This document shows, one piece after another, positions 50,034 to 64,000 of a DNA stretch of 64,000 nt (the stretch's first letter is position 1; each line of letters opens with the position of its first letter). A program made the position numbers and the translations under genes. The notes beneath the pieces are model-generated. The model was not told the DNA's origin. It worked only from the letters and a program-made list of their open reading frames with translations, and searched no databases. Source of the DNA: Gammaproteobacteria bacterium (lineage in GTDB: Bacteria; Pseudomonadota; Gammaproteobacteria; Steroidobacterales; Woeseiaceae); contig JAHZJK010000024.1 of NCBI GenBank assembly GCA_022600955.1, positions 248,003-312,002 of the forward strand, in the 5' to 3' direction.

Positions 50034-50164
50034 ACGCGTTTGCGACCGCTCGGTTACAGCGTGCGGACAACAAGTGCGACGACGCGCTCGGATACTTGAT
50101 AAAAATCAAAGGTGCTGACGACGCAGTCATCCATACTGCCAGAAGGAGAAAATCGGGGGATAAC

Positions 50165-51916
50165 ATGATCGGCGTCGATGACCGCCTGGTCACACCAGCG
50201 ACAATGAAGTGGGTCAGGATTGGCCTGCTGGCAGGGCTGGCGACGATTCCAACCACCATTCTGCTGTACTACGTGCTTGGGCTCGCTATTGATGCCGCTT
50301 TTGCAGGCAGCAACCTGCTGCGTAACTGGATGCTGCTCTTTGCTGGACTGGTACTGCTCAAGGCGGCGCTCGCCTGGATCTTCCGTACCGGCCAGTTTCG
50401 GGCGTCGAGCGAGGCCAAGCTCAATGTTCGCGACCAGATCTACAAGCAAGTCGTCAAACTCGGCCCTGGTTTGCTCGGTAAGCGGCGCACGGGTGAGATC
50501 GCCAACACCGCAACCGAGGGTGTCGAGTATCTCGACTACTATTTCAGTGTCTACTTTGTGCAGATATGGGTCGCAATTGCGATTCCGGTGTTTCTTGTCA
50601 TTGCGATCTTTTCGATCGACTGGGTCGTCGGCCTGTGGATGCTTGCAGGCGTCCCGCTGACACCACTGTTCGTCGGCAGCTCTGCGCGTGGATTTCGCCG
50701 CATTTCAAAAGCCAATGAAGAGGTAAAAAATCGCAACGCGTCTGCCTATCTCGACTCCATCCAGGGCATGGCCACGCTAAAAATGTTCAACCAGGGCCTG
50801 CGACGCGGCCAACAGATGGAGGCGGACAACGAAAAGCAGCGTAAGACGACAATGAAACTCCTGCTGGTCGCGCAGGCGCAGTTTATTCTCCTGGAACTTG
50901 GTTTCGCATTGTTCTCAACGGCCGTGGCGATGGGGGTTTCCCTATATCGTTACAGCGGCGGTTACATGACACCGGGTGAGGTCGTCGCAGTAGTGTTCAT
51001 GAGTCTTGAATTCAGTCGTACACTGCTCCTGATAGGCGAATTCTTCTTTGCCGGCGCGCTGGGTCGCGAAGTGGCGGCTGAAGTGGTGAAGTTTCTTGAC
51101 GAAGAGGCGCCCGTGACCAGCGCTGAGGGTGAACGCCCCGACACACCTGCAGGGCAGGCCGCCGAGATCGAATTTCGCAGTGTGACCTTTACCTACCCGG
51201 GCGCGAATGATGCCGCGATCAAGAATCTGAGCTTGACGTTGCGACCGAATGAGACAGTCGCACTGATCGGTAAAAGTGGTTCCGGAAAGACCACGGTCAC
51301 AAACCTGTTACTACGCACTCTTGACCCGCAAGCAGGCCACATTTATTTCGATGGTGTTCAGGATGAGAAGTTGTCGCTCGAGTGGATTCGCGAGCAGATT
51401 GCTTTGGTCCCGCAAGATCCGTTTCTGTTCTATGGCACCGTCGCAGATAATTTGAGAATCGCCCGTGACGATGCGAGCGACGCGGAACTGCTAGCCGCAC
51501 TGAAAGACGCTGAATTACTGGATTTCGTTGAGTCGAATCCAGCGGGGCTCGACACGATGGTCGGCGACCAGGGGATGGCGCTGAGTGGCGGCCAGGCACA
51601 ACGGCTGGCGATTGCCCGGGCAATCCTGAAAGACGCACCTGTCGTTATTCTGGATGAGCCAACGTCACAGATCGATGTCGAAACGGAGGCGCTGCTGAAC
51701 AAGGCGCTGCAACGTTTGACCGAGAATAAAACGGTGCTGCTTATCGCACATCGATTAAGCACCATTGAGCAGGCCGACAGGATACTGGTCATGCACAACG
51801 GTGAGCTTTCTGAGTCCGGAACGCGGGAACAGCTACTTGCCAGCGGCGGGATTTACGCCAGCATGATCAGTACGAAGCAGGCGATTGAGCGGCAGGAGGC
51901 GAAGCATGCAGAGTAA
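50165..51916 (+). CDS. ABC transporter permease/ATPase, CydD-like
   Basis: Six-TM domain; Walker A GKSGSGKTT, signature LSGGQAQR, Walker B VVILDEPTS. Confidence 0.88.
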   Translation: MIGVDDRLVTPATMKWVRIGLLAGLATIPTTILLYYVLGLAIDAAFAGSNLLRNWMLLFAGLVLLKAALAWIFRTGQFRASSEAKLNVRDQIYKQVVKLGPGLLGKRRTGEIANTATEGVEYLDYYFSVYFVQIWVAIAIPVFLVIAIFSIDWVVGLWMLAGVPLTPLFVGSSARGFRRISKANEEVKNRNASAYLDSIQGMATLKMFNQGLRRGQQMEADNEKQRKTTMKLLLVAQAQFILLELGFALFSTAVAMGVSLYRYSGGYMTPGEVVAVVFMSLEFSRTLLLIGEFFFAGALGREVAAEVVKFLDEEAPVTSAEGERPDTPAGQAAEIEFRSVTFTYPGANDAAIKNLSLTLRPNETVALIGKSGSGKTTVTNLLLRTLDPQAGHIYFDGVQDEKLSLEWIREQIALVPQDPFLFYGTVADNLRIARDDASDAELLAALKDAELLDFVESNPAGLDTMVGDQGMALSGGQAQRLAIARAILKDAPVVILDEPTSQIDVETEALLNKALQRLTENKTVLLIAHRLSTIEQADRILVMHNGELSESGTREQLLASGGIYASMISTKQAIERQEAKHAE

Positions 51917-53708
51917 CGCCCAAATCATTCGCCGCCTGTTGACGTTCATGGCACCGTTTAACACGATAATGGTGAGCTCGCTGGTGGCGCGCGTGATCAA
52001 GTTTTGTGGCCAGGCCGCCGTGCTGGGAGTAGCCGCCGCGAGCGTCGGTATCTATGTGAACGCAGCCGTACCTGGCGTCGTCAATTGGGACATTATCTGG
52101 GGACAGGTTGGCTGGATCGCATTGTTTGGCACGATTGTCGGGTTCGCGTCTTACATCGAAAACTACACAGGTCACTACGTCGCATTCAAGATCCTTGCCG
52201 CATTTCGCGATAACTTCTATTACTCAATGTTGCCGCTGGCGCCGGCCCGCACCGCTAAGCTGCAGTCTGGCGATGCCGTCAGCCGAGTTATGACCGACTG
52301 CGAGCGTATCGAGCCGTTCTACGCGCATACGATCGCTCCGGCAATCGCTGCGATTTTCGTGCCTGCGATCTTGTTAGCCTGGTGTTGGCGGGTTGACCCG
52401 GAGCTGGTCTATGCCCTGGCGCCGTTTTACATCGCGAACACCTTACTATTGCCATGGTTGGTGAGTCGTCTCGGTGGGGACGGCGTCGAGTATCGAAACC
52501 AGATCGGCCAGGTCAATGCCTTCGTTGCAGACAGCATTCAGGGCGTGCGTGACACCGTAGCATTCGGCTATGAAGGCCGTCGTGCGCAGCAGCTGTTCGA
52601 TATCGGTGCGTCGATGCAGGAGGGGCAAGACAAACTCTATGGTGCTGATGCATGGCAGAGGGCGCTGGCTGAAATCTTCATAACGGTCGGTATTCTCGCG
52701 TCTGCCTGGATCGGTATAGAACTGGCACTGGCTGACAAGATTGACGCTCTTGTGCAGTTGCCAGCCGTCGTTGCAGTGAACATCGTGGGTTTTTATCTTT
52801 CGGTAGGCCTCGCGAATAATTACACGGACTTCCGGGTGTCGATCATCGCCGCACGCAGGCTGTTCGCAATGATGGACGCAAAGCCAGCTGTCGAAGAGAC
52901 TGCAGCGGGGCCAGTTGCCGGCTGCATCACGCCGACAATCAAATTTGATGATGTGCGATTTGAATATGACGCAGATGATGCCGAGTGGAGCCGTGGCAAG
53001 ACTATCTTTGATGGTTTCACCCTGAGCATCGATACAGGCAAACACGTCGCGCTGGTCGGACCGAGCGGAACCGGCAAATCGACAGTCGTTAATCTGTTGC
53101 TGCGGCAATGGGATCCACAACAGGGCACGATCAGCCTGGGCGGCAAGCGCCTGACAGAGTTTCCACTCGCCGATTTGCAGCGCATGTTCGCGGTGGTCTC
53201 GCAACGCAGTTTTATCTTCAACGATACCGTGAGGGAGAACATTCGCATGGGCCGCTGGGAGGCCTCAGACGCGGAGATTGAGGCAGCAGCTGCGGAAGCC
53301 GGACTTGCCGATTGGCTCGCATCAACGCCCGAAGGACTTGATACTGACGCTGGCGAGCGTGGCAGCAAAATATCAGGCGGTCAGCGGCAGCGTGTCGCAA
53401 TAGCCCGTGCGGTTCTTAAAAACGCACCGGTCGTTCTTCTCGACGAGGCGACTTCCAGCCTCGATATTGAAACTGAACAAGGTGTGATGCGGTCGCTGCG
53501 AAAATTGTGCGCTGGCCGAACGACGTTGACGATTGCACACCGGTTGGCGACGATCGTTAATAGTGACGAGATACTGGTGATGTTGCAGGGCAAGATCGCC
53601 GAGCGTGGCACACACGCCGAGCTGATGGACCGCGGTGGATGGTATGCGAAGATGTTCGCACTGCAACAGGATGAAGTGGACGTTACACTGACGGTCAAAC
53701 AAGAATAA
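51906..53708 (+). CDS. ABC transporter permease/ATPase, CydC-like
   Basis: Six-TM domain; GPSGTGKST, ISGGQRQR, VVLLDEATSSLD; overlaps the previous gene by 11 nt. Confidence 0.88.
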   Translation: MQSNAQIIRRLLTFMAPFNTIMVSSLVARVIKFCGQAAVLGVAAASVGIYVNAAVPGVVNWDIIWGQVGWIALFGTIVGFASYIENYTGHYVAFKILAAFRDNFYYSMLPLAPARTAKLQSGDAVSRVMTDCERIEPFYAHTIAPAIAAIFVPAILLAWCWRVDPELVYALAPFYIANTLLLPWLVSRLGGDGVEYRNQIGQVNAFVADSIQGVRDTVAFGYEGRRAQQLFDIGASMQEGQDKLYGADAWQRALAEIFITVGILASAWIGIELALADKIDALVQLPAVVAVNIVGFYLSVGLANNYTDFRVSIIAARRLFAMMDAKPAVEETAAGPVAGCITPTIKFDDVRFEYDADDAEWSRGKTIFDGFTLSIDTGKHVALVGPSGTGKSTVVNLLLRQWDPQQGTISLGGKRLTEFPLADLQRMFAVVSQRSFIFNDTVRENIRMGRWEASDAEIEAAAAEAGLADWLASTPEGLDTDAGERGSKISGGQRQRVAIARAVLKNAPVVLLDEATSSLDIETEQGVMRSLRKLCAGRTTLTIAHRLATIVNSDEILVMLQGKIAERGTHAELMDRGGWYAKMFALQQDEVDVTLTVKQE

Positions 53709-56007: not shown

Positions 56008-56787
56008 CTAAAACTCTTCGAGCAGTCGACCCTTACCAATAATCTTGTCGTCAATTCCCGATGCGCGCAAGGCATGCCATATACAGGCTATGTTTATCGG
56101 GATGAGCGGCTTCTGTAGCCAGTGCTCCATGGTCGGAAAAATGTCGACCGTTGACAGGTTGGTACCGCATTGAATAATCGCATCGACATCATCACCGTCA
56201 ATTTCGCGAACTGCGTCCATAACCATTGGAATAGTCGTTTCTGCGATAGCGGTTGCTGATGGTCTGGCCAGTCCCTTGATTGCCTTAACCTCGAAGCCAA
56301 TATCGTTGAAAAAGCGGACGACGTTGTCATCGCCAACCTGAGGGTAGGGTGTAATTACAGCAATTCTTCTGGCACCGAACTTGTGCAATGCATCACGTGC
56401 GGCAGCTGCACCGGTTGTCAATCCGAGGTCTCCGATTTGCTCTGTTATGCCGGCTTCAAAGGCATGGTTGCCCTCAAGTCCGCCCCAAAACGTCTCAGCA
56501 GACATACCGAGCATCAGATGGCTGATCTCTGCACTGAGCACGTTGCGAATGGACAATGGCAGCTCGTCTCGCAGGGCGTCCAGGAAACGCTCGAAGACCG
56601 TATTGAAATCATCGCCTGAGCGTTCCGATTCGCCGGCCCAGTTGGCGATCTGAATCCAGAATCGAGAAGGGTGCCAGGTCAGGCCTTCCAGCGAAAATTT
56701 TTGCAGATCATATTCGACTCCGGTATTGGTCGAGGGAATCAGCACGCCGATGCGTGCCCGCTTTACGATCTGGTAGTTGTCCATCAA
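56008..56787 (-). CDS. Maleate isomerase / arylmalonate decarboxylase-like protein (Asp/Glu racemase superfamily), copy 1
   Basis: ARIGVLIPSTNTGVEYDLQKF, LMLGMSAETFWGGLEGN, LTTGAAAARDALHKFGARRIAVITPYPQVGDDNV, IIQCGTNLSTVDIFP. Confidence 0.82.
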   Translation of the reverse strand: MMDNYQIVKRARIGVLIPSTNTGVEYDLQKFSLEGLTWHPSRFWIQIANWAGESERSGDDFNTVFERFLDALRDELPLSIRNVLSAEISHLMLGMSAETFWGGLEGNHAFEAGITEQIGDLGLTTGAAAARDALHKFGARRIAVITPYPQVGDDNVVRFFNDIGFEVKAIKGLARPSATAIAETTIPMVMDAVREIDGDDVDAIIQCGTNLSTVDIFPTMEHWLQKPLIPINIACIWHALRASGIDDKIIGKGRLLEEF

Positions 56788-56814
56788 AACTCTTCACGCT
56801 CCCTGTGAGAAAAG

Positions 56815-56849
56815 CCAGGCTCGCGGCGGGGAGAACACCGCGAGCCTGG
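56815..56849 (-). terminator. Rho-independent terminator downstream of TonB receptor
   Basis: CCAGGCTCGCGG-N11-CCGCGAGCCTGG; on minus strand followed by CTTTTCTC. Confidence 0.8.
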
Positions 56850-56856
56850 TTTGCCA

Positions 56857-59529
56857 CTACTCTCCGAAAGAATAGCGGAATCGCATACCCGCTGTGCGTG
56901 GCGTCGGCAAATACAGGCTTACTGCCTGCGGGACGCTTTGACCGTCGGGCAGCAAGGCATAGTCAACGTTGCCCAGGCCGGACTTGACCTTGTCATCATT
57001 CGACAGATTCGTGACGTAGAAGGTCAGCTCCCAATTGTCGCGCGCAAGGCCTGCAAACAGGTCCAGCTCGGTGTACTGAGGCAGCCACGCGAGGTTGCCC
57101 TCTCCAACGAAACGCTCCGAGTTGTACACCGCCAGCAGTTCGACGTAGCCGCTCATGCCGGAGTCGAAGTTAGCATCCATGCGTAGCGACGCAGTTGCCG
57201 CGTCTTCCGGCGTCAGTGGTGGGATTTTCCCGGAGAAGTCAGCTTCATTGTTTCCAGCTTTGACACGGTTGAACGCGTTTGGAGTACCACCAGCCTGAGC
57301 AAGAATGTCTGTCAGGTTGAAGCTCGTGAACTCGGCATCCGTATGCGTGTAGGAAATACGCGCCGACAGTCCTTCAAGAAACGCCGAATTCCAGGTCAGA
57401 TCAACTTCATAACCCTTGATCTCCGTCTCACCGGCGTTAATAACCGTGGTTTGCAGCAGTCCGGTTGTCGGGCTGATGAACTGGTACGGAACCTGTTGGT
57501 CGGTGTAGTCGTAGAAGAATGCAGCTGCATTCAATCGAATAGATCGATCACGCAAGGTTGACTTGAAACCGAACTCATACGTGTCGAGTTTTTCCGAGGT
57601 GTATTCGCCCGTTGTTACATCACCGTTGGCATCGGTCGTGCTGATACCGCCTGGCTTGAACGCCTGCGAGTAGTAACCGTACATCAGCATGTCATCGCTA
57701 AGTGACCAGTCGAAGGTGACCTTCGGTACAAACTCGTCTTCTTCGACAGAGTTGTAAGTCATTTCACCGGGACCGAACATGAAGCCCCACCATGGGTCCT
57801 GACCGAACTGCGAAAAGAATCCGATGTCAGCTGCGCCGCCCGCATAGTCAATTACTTCATCGAGGTAGCGGCCTTCCAGTGAGACGACAAAGTTGTCGGT
57901 GACATTGATCGAGACCAGCCCTGCGATCGATGAGTGCTTCGTTTCTCGGTGCAATGGTACGTAAGGCGTATTGCCCGGCCCGGTGGCCAGAGACGTTACC
58001 CGAGGTACACATCCTGCAACGCCAGGATAGATCAGGTCGCAAAAGTTGTTCACAAACGGTGGCGCGATAGGTTGTTGCAGATAGTTGAACGGTGCTCCCG
58101 GCGTGTCGTTGAGCAGGTTCAGTACCAACGCCGGGTCGCCACCTTCACGTAGCCACCATTCGTCGTCGAACTGAGAATCCATTGTCTCGGTCCAGTGCAG
58201 CAGACTCAGCTTCCAGTCGATGCGATCGGTGTTTCCGGACAGGCGCAGCTCGTGGTTCCACTGCGAAGTATCAATCCGTTGCTCGGACATCGCCGACAAA
58301 CCGTACTGCGAGAATGGGAATGGTCCAAACGGCACGGCGACAATCGGGTTATTGCTCTTGTCAAAGTCCTCCTGCACGTGTGCCTTGCTGTCCGCGTATC
58401 CCAGGATGTATCGAAACTCCATGCCGTTGTCGAAGTCCACGTCAATATCGTAGTGAAAACGCGAAATGTCGATGTCGGAACCAAGGAAGTCTCGCCCGGT
58501 TCGTGGGTCTGGTGACAGGTCGATGTCGGCTTCTGTCGCGTGCAATTGTCCCGTGACCAGCGCACGACAGGTGGGCCCAAGTCCGAATGAGTCGTAATTT
58601 GGCTGCAGGCGATCAATGCCGTTGCAAGTGGCTGGGAACATATGCGGAAATGACGTCGCAGCATCCGTGACCGTGCCCGTGCCGAGGAAGTTGACGGCCG
58701 GGTCGAATTGCGGTGTCAGCGCCTGAATAAATGCTTCAGCGCGCGGGGTAGCCTGGTAGTTACTACGTTCGTAACGGAAGTACGTGTCGATGCTGTCATT
58801 GAACTGGTACGTCAACGCGATGGCGCCGCCAATCGTCTCCGAACTTCCCAGGAACTGGCCGGTGTTCGGATTGCGGTAATCGCCTTTTTGATCGTCTTTC
58901 ATGAACGACACGCGAGCGCCCATCTTGTCATCGATGACAGGCCCGGACAGGCTGAATCCAAATTCAGACGATGAGTCCTCGTCGTATCCAACCGTTACGT
59001 GGCCCTCGAATTCGTCGCCAGGCTTCTTGGTGACATAGTTGATGGCGCCCGTAAACGCAGATCGACCATACAGTGCGTTCTGCGGACCCTTAATAACCTC
59101 AACACGCTCGACATCGAGCAACGCGAGATTGGCTGTTATGCCGCCACCGGCAACCGTTAGTGCTTCGCTGGAAACATCGACGAAGTCAACCAGGATACCG
59201 ACGTTCGGGCGCCCGCGCAGCGCGTTAGCGCCACGAATAACGGGTCGAGTATCCATTGGCAGAACGCCCTGATCATAGGTTAGCGACGGCGTGTAGCGCG
59301 CCAGGGTACTAACCGTGTCGATCGATAGCTGTTGCAGCCGTGCTTCCGTAAACACGTCAACTGCAATAGGCACTTCCTGAAGCGACTCGTCGCGCTTTCG
59401 TGCGCTGACGACAATCTCCTCAAGAGCAAGCGAATTGCCGCTGTCGTTCTGGGCAAAACTGGCCGCAGTCGGCAGTGCAGAACACACTGCAGCAGCCATG
59501 GCCAGTACAAGCTTTATTTCAGATTTCAT
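56857..59529 (-). CDS. TonB-dependent receptor
   Basis: Signal peptide, ALEEIVVSARKRDESLQEVPIAVDVFTEARLQ, plug VEVIKGPQNALYGRSAFTGAINYVTKKPGDEFEG, C-terminal GMRFRYSFGE. Confidence 0.95.
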   Translation of the reverse strand: MKSEIKLVLAMAAAVCSALPTAASFAQNDSGNSLALEEIVVSARKRDESLQEVPIAVDVFTEARLQQLSIDTVSTLARYTPSLTYDQGVLPMDTRPVIRGANALRGRPNVGILVDFVDVSSEALTVAGGGITANLALLDVERVEVIKGPQNALYGRSAFTGAINYVTKKPGDEFEGHVTVGYDEDSSSEFGFSLSGPVIDDKMGARVSFMKDDQKGDYRNPNTGQFLGSSETIGGAIALTYQFNDSIDTYFRYERSNYQATPRAEAFIQALTPQFDPAVNFLGTGTVTDAATSFPHMFPATCNGIDRLQPNYDSFGLGPTCRALVTGQLHATEADIDLSPDPRTGRDFLGSDIDISRFHYDIDVDFDNGMEFRYILGYADSKAHVQEDFDKSNNPIVAVPFGPFPFSQYGLSAMSEQRIDTSQWNHELRLSGNTDRIDWKLSLLHWTETMDSQFDDEWWLREGGDPALVLNLLNDTPGAPFNYLQQPIAPPFVNNFCDLIYPGVAGCVPRVTSLATGPGNTPYVPLHRETKHSSIAGLVSINVTDNFVVSLEGRYLDEVIDYAGGAADIGFFSQFGQDPWWGFMFGPGEMTYNSVEEDEFVPKVTFDWSLSDDMLMYGYYSQAFKPGGISTTDANGDVTTGEYTSEKLDTYEFGFKSTLRDRSIRLNAAAFFYDYTDQQVPYQFISPTTGLLQTTVINAGETEIKGYEVDLTWNSAFLEGLSARISYTHTDAEFTSFNLTDILAQAGGTPNAFNRVKAGNNEADFSGKIPPLTPEDAATASLRMDANFDSGMSGYVELLAVYNSERFVGEGNLAWLPQYTELDLFAGLARDNWELTFYVTNLSNDDKVKSGLGNVDYALLPDGQSVPQAVSLYLPTPRTAGMRFRYSFGE

Positions 59530-59547
59530 TTTTACCTCTCCCCTTTT

Positions 59548-59569
59548 GTCCAGTCATTGCTGACTGGAC
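59548..59569. repeat. Short perfect hairpin upstream of TonB receptor start
   Basis: GTCCAGTCA-ttgc-TGACTGGAC in the 5' leader of the minus-strand receptor gene. Confidence 0.55.
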
Positions 59570-59631
59570 GACGTGAGCCGCTTGCGCGACCCGTTATTGG
59601 CAGTAGTGGCACTTCGCCACCACTGCGTCAT

Positions 59632-60468
59632 CTAGTGCTCTTCGAACAATCGTCCGAAGTTGTCGTATCGATCATTAACACCGCAGCTGCGAAGCGCATG
59701 CCACGCAGTTGCTACGTTGATAGGTAAGGCGGGCTTGCCCAACCACTTTTCTATGGTCGGAAATATGCCGCTCGTGGACAGATTGGTTCCCACCTGCACA
59801 ATGGCATCAATGTTGTCGCCGTCAACTTGCCGTACCAGGTCTGCAACCTGGTGCTCGGGCACAAGCGCAATGGCGTCCGTTGTGTTTTCGCAGCGCAGAC
59901 CAACAAGGTTTTTTACGTTGTAACCGGAATCCTCGAAAAAAAGTCGCACGTTCTGGTCGCCGATTGGCTGGTAAGGCGTGATGATGCCGAGGTTCTTGCC
60001 ACCGTCCCCGTCAACGCCAAGCGCGTTCAGCGCAGCGATAACCGCATTGGCTCCGGTAGTCAGCCCCGTTTCATGGCCCACCTGTTCATGAATACGATCG
60101 ACAAAACCATCGTTGCCTTCTATGCCGCCCCAGAAAGTCTCCGCCGACATTCCCATCATCACGTGATCAGGCTTGCACGTCATGAGGCTCTGAATAGATG
60201 CGCCGATAGTTTCACGCAGTAATTCCAGAAACCGCAGGAAGTTCTTGTCGTCGCTGAGATCGGTGTGTTCGATATAGAAACGTGTGGTATGCCAGGTGAC
60301 CCCGCGAGGCAGAATGCGCTGGCAATCGTATTCGACAGATGTGTTCGTCGAAGGAACCACAACACCGATCTTGGCGCGATGGCCAATGTAGTTATCCTGG
60401 TGACCGTTCGTCAGTTGTTCGCGGTCGCGATTGCGTGACAAATCGATTGGTCCGAAAGCACTCGTCAT
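59632..60468 (-). CDS. Maleate isomerase / arylmalonate decarboxylase-like protein, copy 2
   Basis: AKIGVVVPSTNTSVEYDCQRILPRGVTWHTTRFYIEH, VMMGMSAETFWGGIEGN, LGIITPYQPIGDQNVRLFF, AIVQVGTNLSTSGIFP. Confidence 0.82.
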   Translation of the reverse strand: MTSAFGPIDLSRNRDREQLTNGHQDNYIGHRAKIGVVVPSTNTSVEYDCQRILPRGVTWHTTRFYIEHTDLSDDKNFLRFLELLRETIGASIQSLMTCKPDHVMMGMSAETFWGGIEGNDGFVDRIHEQVGHETGLTTGANAVIAALNALGVDGDGGKNLGIITPYQPIGDQNVRLFFEDSGYNVKNLVGLRCENTTDAIALVPEHQVADLVRQVDGDNIDAIVQVGTNLSTSGIFPTIEKWLGKPALPINVATAWHALRSCGVNDRYDNFGRLFEEH

Positions 60469-60487
60469 ATTTCTCTCCCGGTCGTCC

Positions 60488-61705
60488 TCATGCAGCAGCC
60501 TGACTGTCTCTAAGACAATTGATCATGGCTCTTTCAAGCAAAAACTCGCGAGCAGCCATCGGATCAGCGGCTGTTCTCATTAGCATCTTCTGCCGTTTCT
60601 TCTGAATGTCAGGGTCAGTTGATTCCATCAGTTTCTTATTCTGAATCGTGTGTTCCTGAACAAAGCGCACGGCGACGTCTTTTCGCTGCCGGTCGTAATG
60701 TGCCAGCGCATCGTGATAGTCGGCGCCTTCGTTGTATATCGCATCGAATTTTTCGCCGAGACAAAATGCATCGTGCAACCCGCCGTTCATACCCATTCCG
60801 CCGAGCGGGTTGTTGATATGGCAGGCGTCGCCAATCATGGCCATACGTCCGCTCGTGTAGGTTTCTGCAACGCGCTGGTTTACGGCGTAGAGGCTACGAT
60901 GCTTAATGTCGTAGTCGCCATCCAGGTCGTACAGGTGATGCAGGCGCTCCTGGATAAACTGCTCTGACAACAATAGCTGCTCGTCCGCGTCGGTCTCCGG
61001 TGTCGTTGGGAACAGCACGCGCCAGTGCTTGTCGGTTCGCAACACGACGCACCATTCTTCCGGATCCGCAACATAGTTGACGTAAGAGAAGTCATCAAAG
61101 ACTTGCTCAAATGGAAATGAGGTGCTGACGACCAGGAATTTCTCATCGTAGGTGAAGCCCAGAAAATCGATGCCGGCAGATTTTCGAACATTGCTGCGAG
61201 CACCCTCAGCACCGACAACAAATGCGCCGTCCAGCTGCATCTCCTCGCCGTCGTTGAGTACTTCAACCTGCACGCAATCGCCTGACTCGTGGTAGCCGGT
61301 AACCTCGTGTCCGAAACGGACATCGACGCCATCACAGGATTGCAACCGTTCACAGGTAAGGCGCGTGAGTTCGTACTGTTCGAGTTGCAAGCGGAATGGA
61401 AACCCGGTTTCATCCGCGATGAGCTGCATGTCAAAGGTTGCGGTTTCACCGCTGCGACGGTCGCGATACTGATAGCGAGGCGCTTTCAATCCTCTCGCCA
61501 GCATGTTCTCGACGATCCAGGGGTCAAGCTCTGCCAAGAGGTCCAGCGATGCCGGGTGAAAAGTCGATGCGCGCAGGTCAACCGGCAAAGCGAGTTGTTT
61601 CTCCAGCAAAACCACCGGTATGTCTTTTTTCGCCAGGCAGAGAGCCAGCGTAGAGCCGCTGGGTCCTGCGCCGGCAATGACAACGGGCAGACGGTCAGCA
61701 GTCAC
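60488..61705 (-). CDS. FAD-dependent group A aromatic monooxygenase
   Basis: VVIAGAGPSGSTLALCLAKKDIPVVLLEKQ, DG-like VVGAEGARSNVRK, GD motif RMAMIGDACHINNPLGGMGMNGGLHDA; GTG start overlapping upstream stop (GTGA). Confidence 0.9.
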   Translation of the reverse strand: MTADRLPVVIAGAGPSGSTLALCLAKKDIPVVLLEKQLALPVDLRASTFHPASLDLLAELDPWIVENMLARGLKAPRYQYRDRRSGETATFDMQLIADETGFPFRLQLEQYELTRLTCERLQSCDGVDVRFGHEVTGYHESGDCVQVEVLNDGEEMQLDGAFVVGAEGARSNVRKSAGIDFLGFTYDEKFLVVSTSFPFEQVFDDFSYVNYVADPEEWCVVLRTDKHWRVLFPTTPETDADEQLLLSEQFIQERLHHLYDLDGDYDIKHRSLYAVNQRVAETYTSGRMAMIGDACHINNPLGGMGMNGGLHDAFCLGEKFDAIYNEGADYHDALAHYDRQRKDVAVRFVQEHTIQNKKLMESTDPDIQKKRQKMLMRTAADPMAAREFLLERAMINCLRDSQAAA

Positions 61706-62499
61706 TGTGCTGCCTCCCGGGGAAAGAAGTTTCGCAGTAAATCGGCAACTTCCGCACTGTGCGTTTCGCAAACATAGGTCTTCGCACCATCGATTGTGCG
61801 CGTAATGGCGTTCCCCATTAGCCCGGCCGCCGCGTCCAGTTGCTCAAACATCGGGTCGCCTGTTCCGGCAAACAGCAGCGCCGGGGCCTCGCAGGCTTTA
61901 AGAGATGTTGCGAAGTCCTGCGCAATAACGGCTGCATAGGCTTGCGAGTAGCGCTCACCGAGTTGCAAGCCAAACAATGTCTCGCGCAGTGCCAGCTCCA
62001 ATGGTAGTTCGCCATCCTTGTTGCGCATGCGTTGCCACATACGTTGTACGTGCTCGCCGTTTTCGCTCAATGGGAAGGTCTGTGCCGCAGCAGGCAGCGA
62101 AAGTTTTTGTTCCTCGGTGAGCAATGTCGGGCCGGACATGGCGATTGCGGTAACGATGCGAGGTCGTATTGCGGCGATCTCCGCTGCGATAGAGGCGCCA
62201 GTGTGATGGCCAAAAAGACAACATGCATCGAGACCCAGCTCGTCAAAGAACTCCAGCATTGCATCTGCGAAATCCGTGATGCTGGAGTCACCGGGTAGCG
62301 GATCACTCATACCCATGCCCGGAATATCCGGTGCAAGCAGTCGGAAGTCGGTGGCTAGCAGCTGCATTAGCTGCTCGAACATCGCCGAATTACTTGGCGT
62401 CTGGTGCAGCAGCACGACCACTGGCTTGTTCGTCGTGCCAGCGAAGCGATAGTGCATCTGGCCAAATGACACCGGTACATAGCCACGACCCGCATTCAT
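61702..62499 (-). CDS. Alpha/beta-hydrolase-fold protein with non-canonical nucleophile elbow
   Basis: PVVVLLHQTPSNSAMFEQLM, LLAPDIPGMGMSD, elbow LFGHHTGASIA; ATGA overlap with ALDH gene. Confidence 0.88.
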   Translation of the reverse strand: MNAGRGYVPVSFGQMHYRFAGTTNKPVVVLLHQTPSNSAMFEQLMQLLATDFRLLAPDIPGMGMSDPLPGDSSITDFADAMLEFFDELGLDACCLFGHHTGASIAAEIAAIRPRIVTAIAMSGPTLLTEEQKLSLPAAAQTFPLSENGEHVQRMWQRMRNKDGELPLELALRETLFGLQLGERYSQAYAAVIAQDFATSLKACEAPALLFAGTGDPMFEQLDAAAGLMGNAITRTIDGAKTYVCETHSAEVADLLRNFFPREAAQ

Positions 62500-63944
62500 T
62501 GAGCACCGCCAAGTTCGATGCTGACCCACTTGAGCTCAGAAAACTCGAGTGTTGAGTAGTGGCCGCCGCTCTTCCCGAGACCTGACATGCCCAGACCACC
62601 AATTGGTGCCAGCGCATTGCTCTGAAACGAGTGCATACCGATGTGCACTGAACCAGCTCGGATTTGACGCGCGGCGCGAAAAGCCCACTTGACGTTGCTG
62701 GTCAGGACCGCCGCAGAGAGGCCAAAGTCGCTGTCGTTCGCAATAGAGATTGCGTCGTCAAGGTCGACCGCCGCCACGAGGGATGCTATAGGGCCGAAGC
62801 TTTCATCGCGCCACAATGTCGAATCTCGCGGCGGTTCAACGACGATCGTTGGTTCATACACAAGGCCTTGTCTGACTTTGCCACCAGTCAACAATGTCGC
62901 ACCTCGCTCGAGGGCATCTTGCTGGTGCTGCTGAATCTTGGCCAATGCATTGCGGCTGATTACCGGTCCGTATACACATGCCGGATCCAGTTGATCGCCT
63001 ATTGGCAAGGACTCAAGGCAGGATTTGAGTTCTGCTGAAAAGTCATCATAGACAGGCGCCTCAACAATCATTCTCGAGTTCGCCATGCAAATCTGGCCAG
63101 CATGAGCAAACATGCCTTCTGCGGCGATGCGTGCTGCCTCTCGCGGATCGGCGTCGCGCAGCACGAGTACGGCACTCTTGCCTCCCAGCTCGAGCTGCAC
63201 TCGCCGCATACGCTGCATGGCGGCACTACCGACGGCAACACCTGTTGCGGTAGACCCCGTTAGTGCTACGCAGTCGATGTCAGTGTGTGATACCAATGGC
63301 TCACCACAGTCCTGTGGAAAGCCGGTGACCACATTGACGGTGCCATCCGGAATGCCAGCTTCCTTGAGGATGCTGGCATAGGTCATCGCGGTAAGCGGTG
63401 TCTCTTCAGATGGCTTGATGACGACACTGTTGCCGGCAGCCAATGGAAACGCAGACATCTTCACGGTAAGTGACAGCGGTGCGTTGTACGGCGCGATAAC
63501 AGCAACAACGCCTATTGCCTCGCGAAATACCATCGATACACGGTCGTTGCGATCGTTCGGAAAGGTGTCGCCGTACAAGCGACGCGCTTCACCTGCCGCA
63601 GTCCGGAGCAGGTCGACGGAGTAAGCGATTTCGCCGCGTGCCTTGCTGATCGTCGAACCACTCTCCTGCATTAGCGTTTGCAAAATGCGTTGCTCGCCCT
63701 GCGCGGCAATAATATCCGCGGCTCTGAGCAAGGCCGCCTCTCGCTGTGCTGGGGACATTGTTTGCCAGCGCGCAAAGCCGATACGTGCCGCTGTGACGGC
63801 CTTGTCTACATCATTCACGGTCGCAGTTGCTGCGTGACCGATAACTTCTTCGGTCGCCGGCGAGAATACTTCGAAGCATGCATTGCCCGTTGCGGCAACC
63901 ATGTTGCCGTCGATGAAGAGACCGTTGTTGATGAGCGCAGTCAC
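62496..63944 (-). CDS. Aldehyde dehydrogenase (benzaldehyde/vanillin dehydrogenase-like)
   Basis: VQLELGGKSAVLVLRDAD (Glu), FAHAGQICMANSRMIVE (Cys), TLWRDESFGPIASLVAA; GTG start. Confidence 0.93.
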   Translation of the reverse strand: MTALINNGLFIDGNMVAATGNACFEVFSPATEEVIGHAATATVNDVDKAVTAARIGFARWQTMSPAQREAALLRAADIIAAQGEQRILQTLMQESGSTISKARGEIAYSVDLLRTAAGEARRLYGDTFPNDRNDRVSMVFREAIGVVAVIAPYNAPLSLTVKMSAFPLAAGNSVVIKPSEETPLTAMTYASILKEAGIPDGTVNVVTGFPQDCGEPLVSHTDIDCVALTGSTATGVAVGSAAMQRMRRVQLELGGKSAVLVLRDADPREAARIAAEGMFAHAGQICMANSRMIVEAPVYDDFSAELKSCLESLPIGDQLDPACVYGPVISRNALAKIQQHQQDALERGATLLTGGKVRQGLVYEPTIVVEPPRDSTLWRDESFGPIASLVAAVDLDDAISIANDSDFGLSAAVLTSNVKWAFRAARQIRAGSVHIGMHSFQSNALAPIGGLGMSGLGKSGGHYSTLEFSELKWVSIELGGAQ

Positions 63945-63949
63945 AATTC

Positions 63950-64000
63950 TTAGTCCGGCACCCCTTGTGGAACGCCTATCACACGCGAGCCACGAAAGAA
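63950..64000 (-). CDS. C-terminal end of an unidentified upstream gene of the operon
   Basis: Reverse-strand reading ...FFRGSRVIGVPQGVPD-stop is open to the window edge; it ends 5 nt before the ALDH GTG. Too short to classify. Confidence 0.5.
   Translation of the reverse strand, partial: FFRGSRVIGVPQGVPD

Follow-up and report, generated by a model that had tools for sequence, protein, structure and literature searches.

The DNA analysed here (the window) is a stretch of 64,000 nucleotides (C35:248003-312002) from a gammaproteobacterial assembly of 3.86 Mb, and its last 8 kb carry most of a minus-strand run of genes for two aldehyde dehydrogenases (one of them cut by the window end), an alpha/beta hydrolase, an FAD monooxygenase, two relatives of arylmalonate decarboxylase (AMDase) and a TonB-dependent receptor. 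The gene content, gene order, conservation and protein folds place this operon, which continues past the window, in a conserved catabolic supercluster linked to the RCC reductase family (RCCR, PF06405). It is reasonably probable that the operon is the pyrrole-fragment-degrading part of a supercluster for catabolism of linear tetrapyrroles, which are probably derived from chlorophyll.

The operon and its neighbourhood

The features within the window, in order of transcription and in window coordinates, are:

63950..64000, minus strand: ALDH2, another aldehyde dehydrogenase (PF00171), of which the window has the C-terminus; the whole gene (L005:11953-13413) runs beyond the window to contig position 313412
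62496..63944, minus strand: aldehyde dehydrogenase ALDH1 of 482 amino acids, motif GQICMA (PF00171)
61702..62499, minus strand: alpha/beta-hydrolase-fold protein ABH, with GHHTG (His for the nucleophile Ser; PF00561)
60488..61705, minus strand: group A FAD monooxygenase FMO, closest solved relative PnpA (PF01494)
59632..60468, minus strand: Asp/Glu-racemase-superfamily protein AMD2, neither catalytic Cys present (Pfam Amdase, PF17645)
56857..59529, minus strand: TonB-dependent outer-membrane receptor TBDR (PF00593/PF07715)
56815..56849, minus strand: terminator-like hairpin 3' of TBDR, with 14 pairs (11 G-C) and a T-rich tail (pattern match)
56008..56787, minus strand: AMDase-like protein AMD1, without the first Cys, the second kept (QCGTNLS; PF17645)

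The open reading frames (ORFs) and Pfam matches bear out the gene order and families given by an earlier, sequence-only reading of the window, and the overlaps that it described as coupling the genes were read at the same junctions. The frames first called for FMO (60488-61771) and ABH (61702-62529), both on the minus strand, overlap more extensively; the ATGA overlap at the ALDH1/ABH junction (62499-62496) and the GTGA overlap at the ABH/FMO junction (61705-61702) indicate that the true starts are likely to be 62499 for ABH and 61705 for FMO. Such tight overlaps are consistent with translational coupling from ALDH1 through FMO, and ALDH1 begins shortly after the stop codon of ALDH2. AMD1 may be a separate transcription unit, because the strong hairpin (56849-56815) sits between it and TBDR; terminator-like pattern matches in the region are near the number expected by chance, this one having by far the longest stem, and a scan for sigma-70 promoters gave matches at chance level. 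The GC content, 0.55 to 0.58 throughout, gives no foreign signature for the cluster. Before the operon, on the plus strand (50096-53708), are two consecutive ABC-type ATPase/permease half-transporters resembling an exporter pair.

Upstream of ALDH1 the operon continues on the same strand past the window end with ALDH2, an acyl-CoA-dehydrogenase-like protein (ACAD) and a long carbon-nitrogen hydrolase (CNH). The next genes encode an MFS carrier, an SDR, a Rieske/VanA_C oxygenase, an RCC reductase family protein, an alpha/beta hydrolase (ABH2, with only a sub-threshold match to the PETase family) and a flavin reductase, followed by a Crp-type regulator, a second RCC reductase family protein and a second SDR. 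Still further along are a Rieske gene of the Ring_hydroxyl_A type and an ABC transporter. The two PF06405 genes are approximately 14 and 21 kb from the operon. The linked genes of greatest relevance are:

L006:4122-5033 and L006:11649-12464: RCC reductase family genes (PF06405)
L006:2870-4015: linked Rieske oxygenase (Rieske and VanA_C, sub-threshold KshA_C), closest solved relatives NdmA and SxtDIOX

The sequence past position 64000, in which a search for ring-cleavage genes had been suggested, contains Rieske, RCC reductase family and carbon-nitrogen hydrolase genes in a conserved cluster; no ring-cleaving dioxygenase (2,5-dihydroxypyridine type) was recognised among the Pfam-scanned genes on both sides of the operon, a scan that omitted some ORFs and any NicX-family search. 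Two families without Pfam matches (L006:6060-7031 and L006:2272-2865) are 52-82% identical between clusters, always near RCCR and predicted to be mainly beta; possibly they bind pigment. The former had no sequence match in the PDB, and its structure model (predicted local distance difference test, pLDDT, 43.8) was not used.

Conservation and linkage to RCC reductase

When 84,980 species genomes were scanned for AMD2, 19 loci were found, 17 of them gammaproteobacterial (69-82% identity) and two from Chloroflexota (44-46%). In most gammaproteobacterial loci the order is CNH-RCCR3-ACAD-ALDH1-ABH-(isochorismatase)-FMO-AMD2-AMD1-TonB, and Halioglobus, Microbulbifer, HTCC2148, Pseudohalioglobus and Aestuariicella all have orthologous clusters. 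ALDH1 orthologues (57-69% identical) hold the same position in most related loci, and FMO orthologues are 61-72% identical. Stretches of about 55 kb from Halioglobus, HTCC2148, Microbulbifer and Aestuariicella have in common RCCR1 or RCCR2, SDRs, MFS carriers and conserved unknown proteins, as well as a Rieske gene except in Microbulbifer, where none was seen. The partner operons contain an isochorismatase-type amidohydrolase, of the class that includes maleamate amidohydrolase; the lack of such an enzyme, remarked upon in the sequence-only reading, is true of the window operon but not of its orthologues. In varying combination, partner clusters also have two PuuE-type hydrolases accompanied by another isochorismatase, an enzyme resembling methylisocitrate lyase, a pair resembling isopropylmalate isomerase, and pairs of CoA-transferase and HMG-CoA lyase. 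Cyclic imide hydrolases are found among PuuE/PgdA-type proteins (PMC9304392). Among 36 genomes of the same genus as the window genome, neither RCC_reductase nor a close AMD2 orthologue was found. Both the Halioglobus cluster (L061:15935-16942) and that of HTCC2148 encode a DUF169 protein whose PCP_red domain is also known from a protochlorophyllide reductase subunit.

Of the 19 genomes with the operon or a homologous AMD2-type locus, 17 have PF06405. By comparison, it is present in one of the 399 genomes sampled from the phylum, which is that of the window itself, in four of 60 genomes related to it, and in two of 301 Chloroflexota. Caution is due for absences in these counts: for one genome (G076, Roseilinea), one search gave a PF06405 match and another gave no match. 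The association of RCC reductase with the operon is beyond chance (Fisher p ~1e-25, or 7e-17 at one genome per genus, statistics that allow for relatedness only crudely). RCCR and the AMD2-type locus are on one contig in 13 genomes, 1.7-33 kb apart, and when the search was started from RCCR only, both Chloroflexota genomes found (2/2) had contiguous CNH-RCCR-FMO-ALDH genes.

This association bears on whether the FMO-AMD operon instead degrades an unrelated N-heterocycle or amide (hydroxypyridine-, imide- or lactam-type), the RCCR genes being a separate function next door. Modules of this kind do occur apart from RCCR: on alphaproteobacterial plasmids without annotated RCCR, AMD-like genes are beside FMO and isochorismatase genes, or alternatively beside a protein of the isocitrate lyase/phosphoenolpyruvate mutase family or a CoA-transferase with HMG-CoA lyase; two AMD2 loci (L025 and L029) are RCCR-less; and the window genome has two more FMO-AMD pairs (L007:9363-13814 on contig C27, with neither Cys, and L008:8756-12067 on contig C8, with the first Cys only and an isochorismatase nearby at C8:106626). 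However, RCCR or RCCR3 is inside the operon in relatives from two phyla, and its co-occurrence is far above background, so that a separate function is improbable. FMO-AMD could be a general tail for N-heterocycle breakdown, fed from tetrapyrroles by the RCCR-linked supercluster. Elsewhere, Cys-free AMDase-like genes of Leisingera (L095:7995-13053) and Rhizobium (L096:7995-13097) adjoin a nonribosomal-peptide-synthetase-type gene and a tautomerase, which is another and possibly biosynthetic use of the family.

The two PF06405 genes of the window genome score 45.3 and 47.8 bits against a gathering score of 24.9. In a search of the PDB, the RCCR1/2 profile matched plant RCCR at 1.6e-19 and bilin reductases at ~1e-5. 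The Asp of the DPxN motif, which corresponds to the catalytic Asp291 of plant RCCR, is invariant in the eight RCCR-family proteins aligned. RCCR3 is located within the operon in relatives and close to it in the window genome. It matches no Pfam family, but aligns with the RCCR profile (hhalign 97.7%); the best structural matches of its model are RCCR, PebB, HY2 and PcyA, and it is predicted to have the RCCR/bilin-reductase fold. To our knowledge, the known enzymes of this fold, coproporphyrinogen oxidase included, act on tetrapyrroles.

Homology of RCCR-family proteins to bilin reductases raises the alternative that the substrates are bilins from heme or phycobilisomes (biliverdin, phycocyanobilin or bilirubin), degraded by the same downstream chemistry, and the TonB receptor could import free bilins from algae and cyanobacteria. 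Yet the RCCR1/2 profile is much nearer to RCCR than to bilin reductases, the RCCR genes are accompanied by Rieske oxygenases, and heme oxygenase of the PF01126 family (the one family searched; imported bilins would need none) is absent from the ten cluster genomes searched, with working controls, which favours a non-heme source. A bilin substrate from heme or phycobilisomes is considered rather unlikely.

Catalytic residues of the operon enzymes

In the alignment of AMD1 and AMD2 orthologues the motif GMSAETFWGG is invariant, and consequently both proteins lack the first catalytic Cys. At the second position every AMD2 has Val, while AMD1 has Cys except for Ala in two loci (L021 and L030). With respect to the Cys pair of NicE-type maleate isomerase (C76/C194), Met replaces the first, and AMD2 is also without the second; with respect to the arylmalonate decarboxylase pattern (C188 only, no Cys at 74), AMD1 fits apart from the two Ala variants and AMD2 has Val. 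Scores of 61.6 and 41.8 bits with the NCBIfam arylmalonate decarboxylase model NF052327 are under its 225-bit equivalog cut-off, as are scores of 61.6 and 66.1 bits with the EutA model TIGR02990 (cut-off 318 bits). The Cys-free pattern recurs in most of the examined AMD relatives from alphaproteobacteria, proteins that bear the annotation arylmalonate decarboxylase. From this pattern of residues, the chemistry of the AMD proteins is likely to be independent of a thiol.

The nucleophile elbow of ABH is GHHTG rather than GxSxG, with His in every orthologue seen, including those of Chloroflexota. ABH thus lacks the elbow Ser of NicD-type and other Ser hydrolases, and conservation of the His makes it unlikely that ABH is an ordinary Ser hydrolase. 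FMO scores 176 bits with FAD_binding_3 (cut-off 22) and has GAGPSG and GDACHINNPLGG for the GxGxxG and GD motifs, but its DG motif is EG in RCCR-linked gammaproteobacterial orthologues and DG in the two RCCR-less ones. The carbon-nitrogen hydrolase (PF00795, 124 bits) keeps the Glu-Lys-Cys triad, with conserved PEF, KQ and SCMDG motifs. The unusual residues are kept across orthologues, so sequencing error is ruled out as their source, and the non-canonical active sites pointed out in the sequence-only reading are real. Separately, the FMO gene of HTCC2148 is split across two frames (L021:8757-9973) and RCCR1 of a metagenome-assembled Rariloculus genome is frameshifted (L015:18299-19939), in each case by error or decay.

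These residues also weigh on the possibility of a variant nicotinate (Nic), maleate or vanillin pathway. The superfamilies are those of NicC, NicD and NicE, and in relatives also NicF, but every NCBIfam score is far under its equivalog cut-off, the proteins lack the catalytic Cys pair and Ser, and the neighbourhood is of a different kind; such a variant is highly improbable, and orthology to nic, maleate or vanillin genes is ruled out by the scores. The view of the locus as a catabolic, TonB-linked operon whose enzymes depart from NicC, NicD and NicE was accurate, and no orthologous nic or vanillin locus was found. Nothing points to the pyridine carboxylates, vanillin-type or hydroxyphenyl compounds that had been suggested as substrates, a range that was mistaken or too narrow.

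A predicted pathway and its relation to known systems

The best explanation of the genomic evidence is conversion of linear tetrapyrroles to pyrrole fragments and then to substituted C4 dicarboxylates. The TonB receptor and MFS carriers would import a tetrapyrrole, whether open or closed and most likely derived from chlorophyll breakdown, to be opened and reduced by the Rieske oxygenase(s) and the enzymes of RCCR/bilin-reductase fold, by analogy with plant PAO and RCCR. Splitting into mono- or dipyrroles would fall to FMO, to the ACAD-like flavin enzyme together with the flavin reductase linked to it, and to ABH with its His elbow, and the aldehyde dehydrogenases would oxidise aldehydes remaining after bridge cleavage. 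The carbon-nitrogen hydrolase, joined in relatives by isochorismatase and PuuE/imidase-type hydrolases, may open a lactam or imide ring with release of ammonia, after which the Cys-poor AMD1 and AMD2 may isomerise or decarboxylate alkyl-substituted C4 dicarboxylates without the usual thiol chemistry. In partner clusters, a dehydratase and lyase, or CoA-transferase and HMG-CoA lyase, would pass the carbon skeleton to central metabolism. The conserved neighbours fit imide or amide opening and breakdown of branched C4 diacids, and maleimide-type monopyrroles are among the mono- and dipyrrolic products reported from chlorophyll (PMC7318184). A more ambitious proposal, put forward tentatively, is that the supercluster could mineralise chlorophyll-type tetrapyrroles completely, by macrocycle opening, bilin reduction, cleavage to monopyrroles, hydrolysis of imides and a route through dialkyl-maleates that ends in central metabolites, with the Cys-free AMDase-like enzyme and the His-elbow hydrolase performing new chemistry.

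Several observations weigh against tetrapyrrole catabolism. The substrate and every reaction are assigned from families and linkage. The position equivalent to the catalytic Glu154 of plant RCCR is Ala or Val; the confidence of the RCCR3 model is modest (pLDDT 63); and the Rieske proteins are of VanA_C or Ring_hydroxyl_A type, with no PaO-domain match in Pfam. A search for the Staygreen Mg-dechelatase gave no match, but no positive control rang either, and this is not evidence of absence. The window-genome operon is without the isochorismatase of its orthologues, and the cluster around it showed neither an imidase pair nor a dehydratase nor an HMG-CoA-lyase pair. Three other gammaproteobacterial RCCR genes examined, all of RCCR2 type, have different neighbours, which means that this type is not bound to the operon. 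The link of FMO-AMD with RCCR is likewise not obligate, since L025 and L029 have AMD2 and FMO without RCCR.

Chlorophyll ranks among the most abundant pigments on Earth, and its breakdown in plants is known down to phyllobilins. The open-licence papers searched gave no description of bacterial genes that take a tetrapyrrole to central metabolism, of a bacterial chlorophyll-catabolism cluster of this kind (absence there being weak evidence), or of this locus in connection with the natural role of arylmalonate decarboxylase or the FMO/isochorismatase/maleate-isomerase module; the suggestion of an undescribed pathway was a fair one. The operon may be how some bacteria use chlorophyll-type pigments as food, a question that is directly testable since the cluster is conserved and easily recognised in culturable marine bacteria. 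If true, tetrapyrrole catabolism would give a physiological setting to AMDase-like proteins, many of which are so named in databases without the catalytic cysteine.

Among known systems, the aerobic nicotinate pathway (NicC, NicD, NicE and NicF) resembles the operon in its group A FMO, alpha/beta hydrolase and Asp/Glu-racemase-superfamily protein, and in the isochorismatase of relatives, but here the catalytic Ser and Cys are not conserved, RCCR is linked and a ring-cleaving dioxygenase is unrecognised. AMDase is comparable in that PF17645 is above cut-off and AMD1 has the single second Cys, whereas the NCBIfam equivalog cut-off is missed and AMD2 is Cys-free at both places. Dimethylmaleate hydratase and dimethylmalate lyase, enzymes of anaerobic nicotinate fermentation, are paralleled in partner clusters by an aconitase-family dehydratase and an ICL/PEP-mutase-family lyase; however, the host here is aerobic, and the score of the large subunit is that of an isopropylmalate dehydratase, so the enzyme may be a housekeeping one. 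Partner clusters share an FAD monooxygenase, a PuuE/PgdA-type cyclic imide hydrolase and an amide hydrolase with the nicotinate route of Aspergillus (imidase HxnM and amidase HxnN; PMC9304392), which differs in being fungal, acting on a pyridine and having neither RCCR nor an AMD-like protein. The pre-PcyA clusters of heterotrophic bacteria likewise put bilin-reductase-superfamily enzymes in non-photosynthetic bacteria, but they are biosynthetic and hold heme oxygenase, globins, V4R and Fe-S proteins, and the study describing them uses RCCR-like sequences solely as an outgroup (PMC10151467); the present cluster showed none of these accompanying proteins, and its context is catabolic. The plant PAO/RCCR pathway is matched by RCC-reductase-family proteins beside a Rieske oxygenase, with SDR and alpha/beta hydrolase nearby. 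The bacterial Rieske proteins are VanA_C/Ring_hydroxyl_A rather than PaO by Pfam and the Glu154 equivalent is not kept; to the plant scheme, which has neither ring-opening hydrolases nor C4-diacid enzymes, the bacterial cluster adds both.

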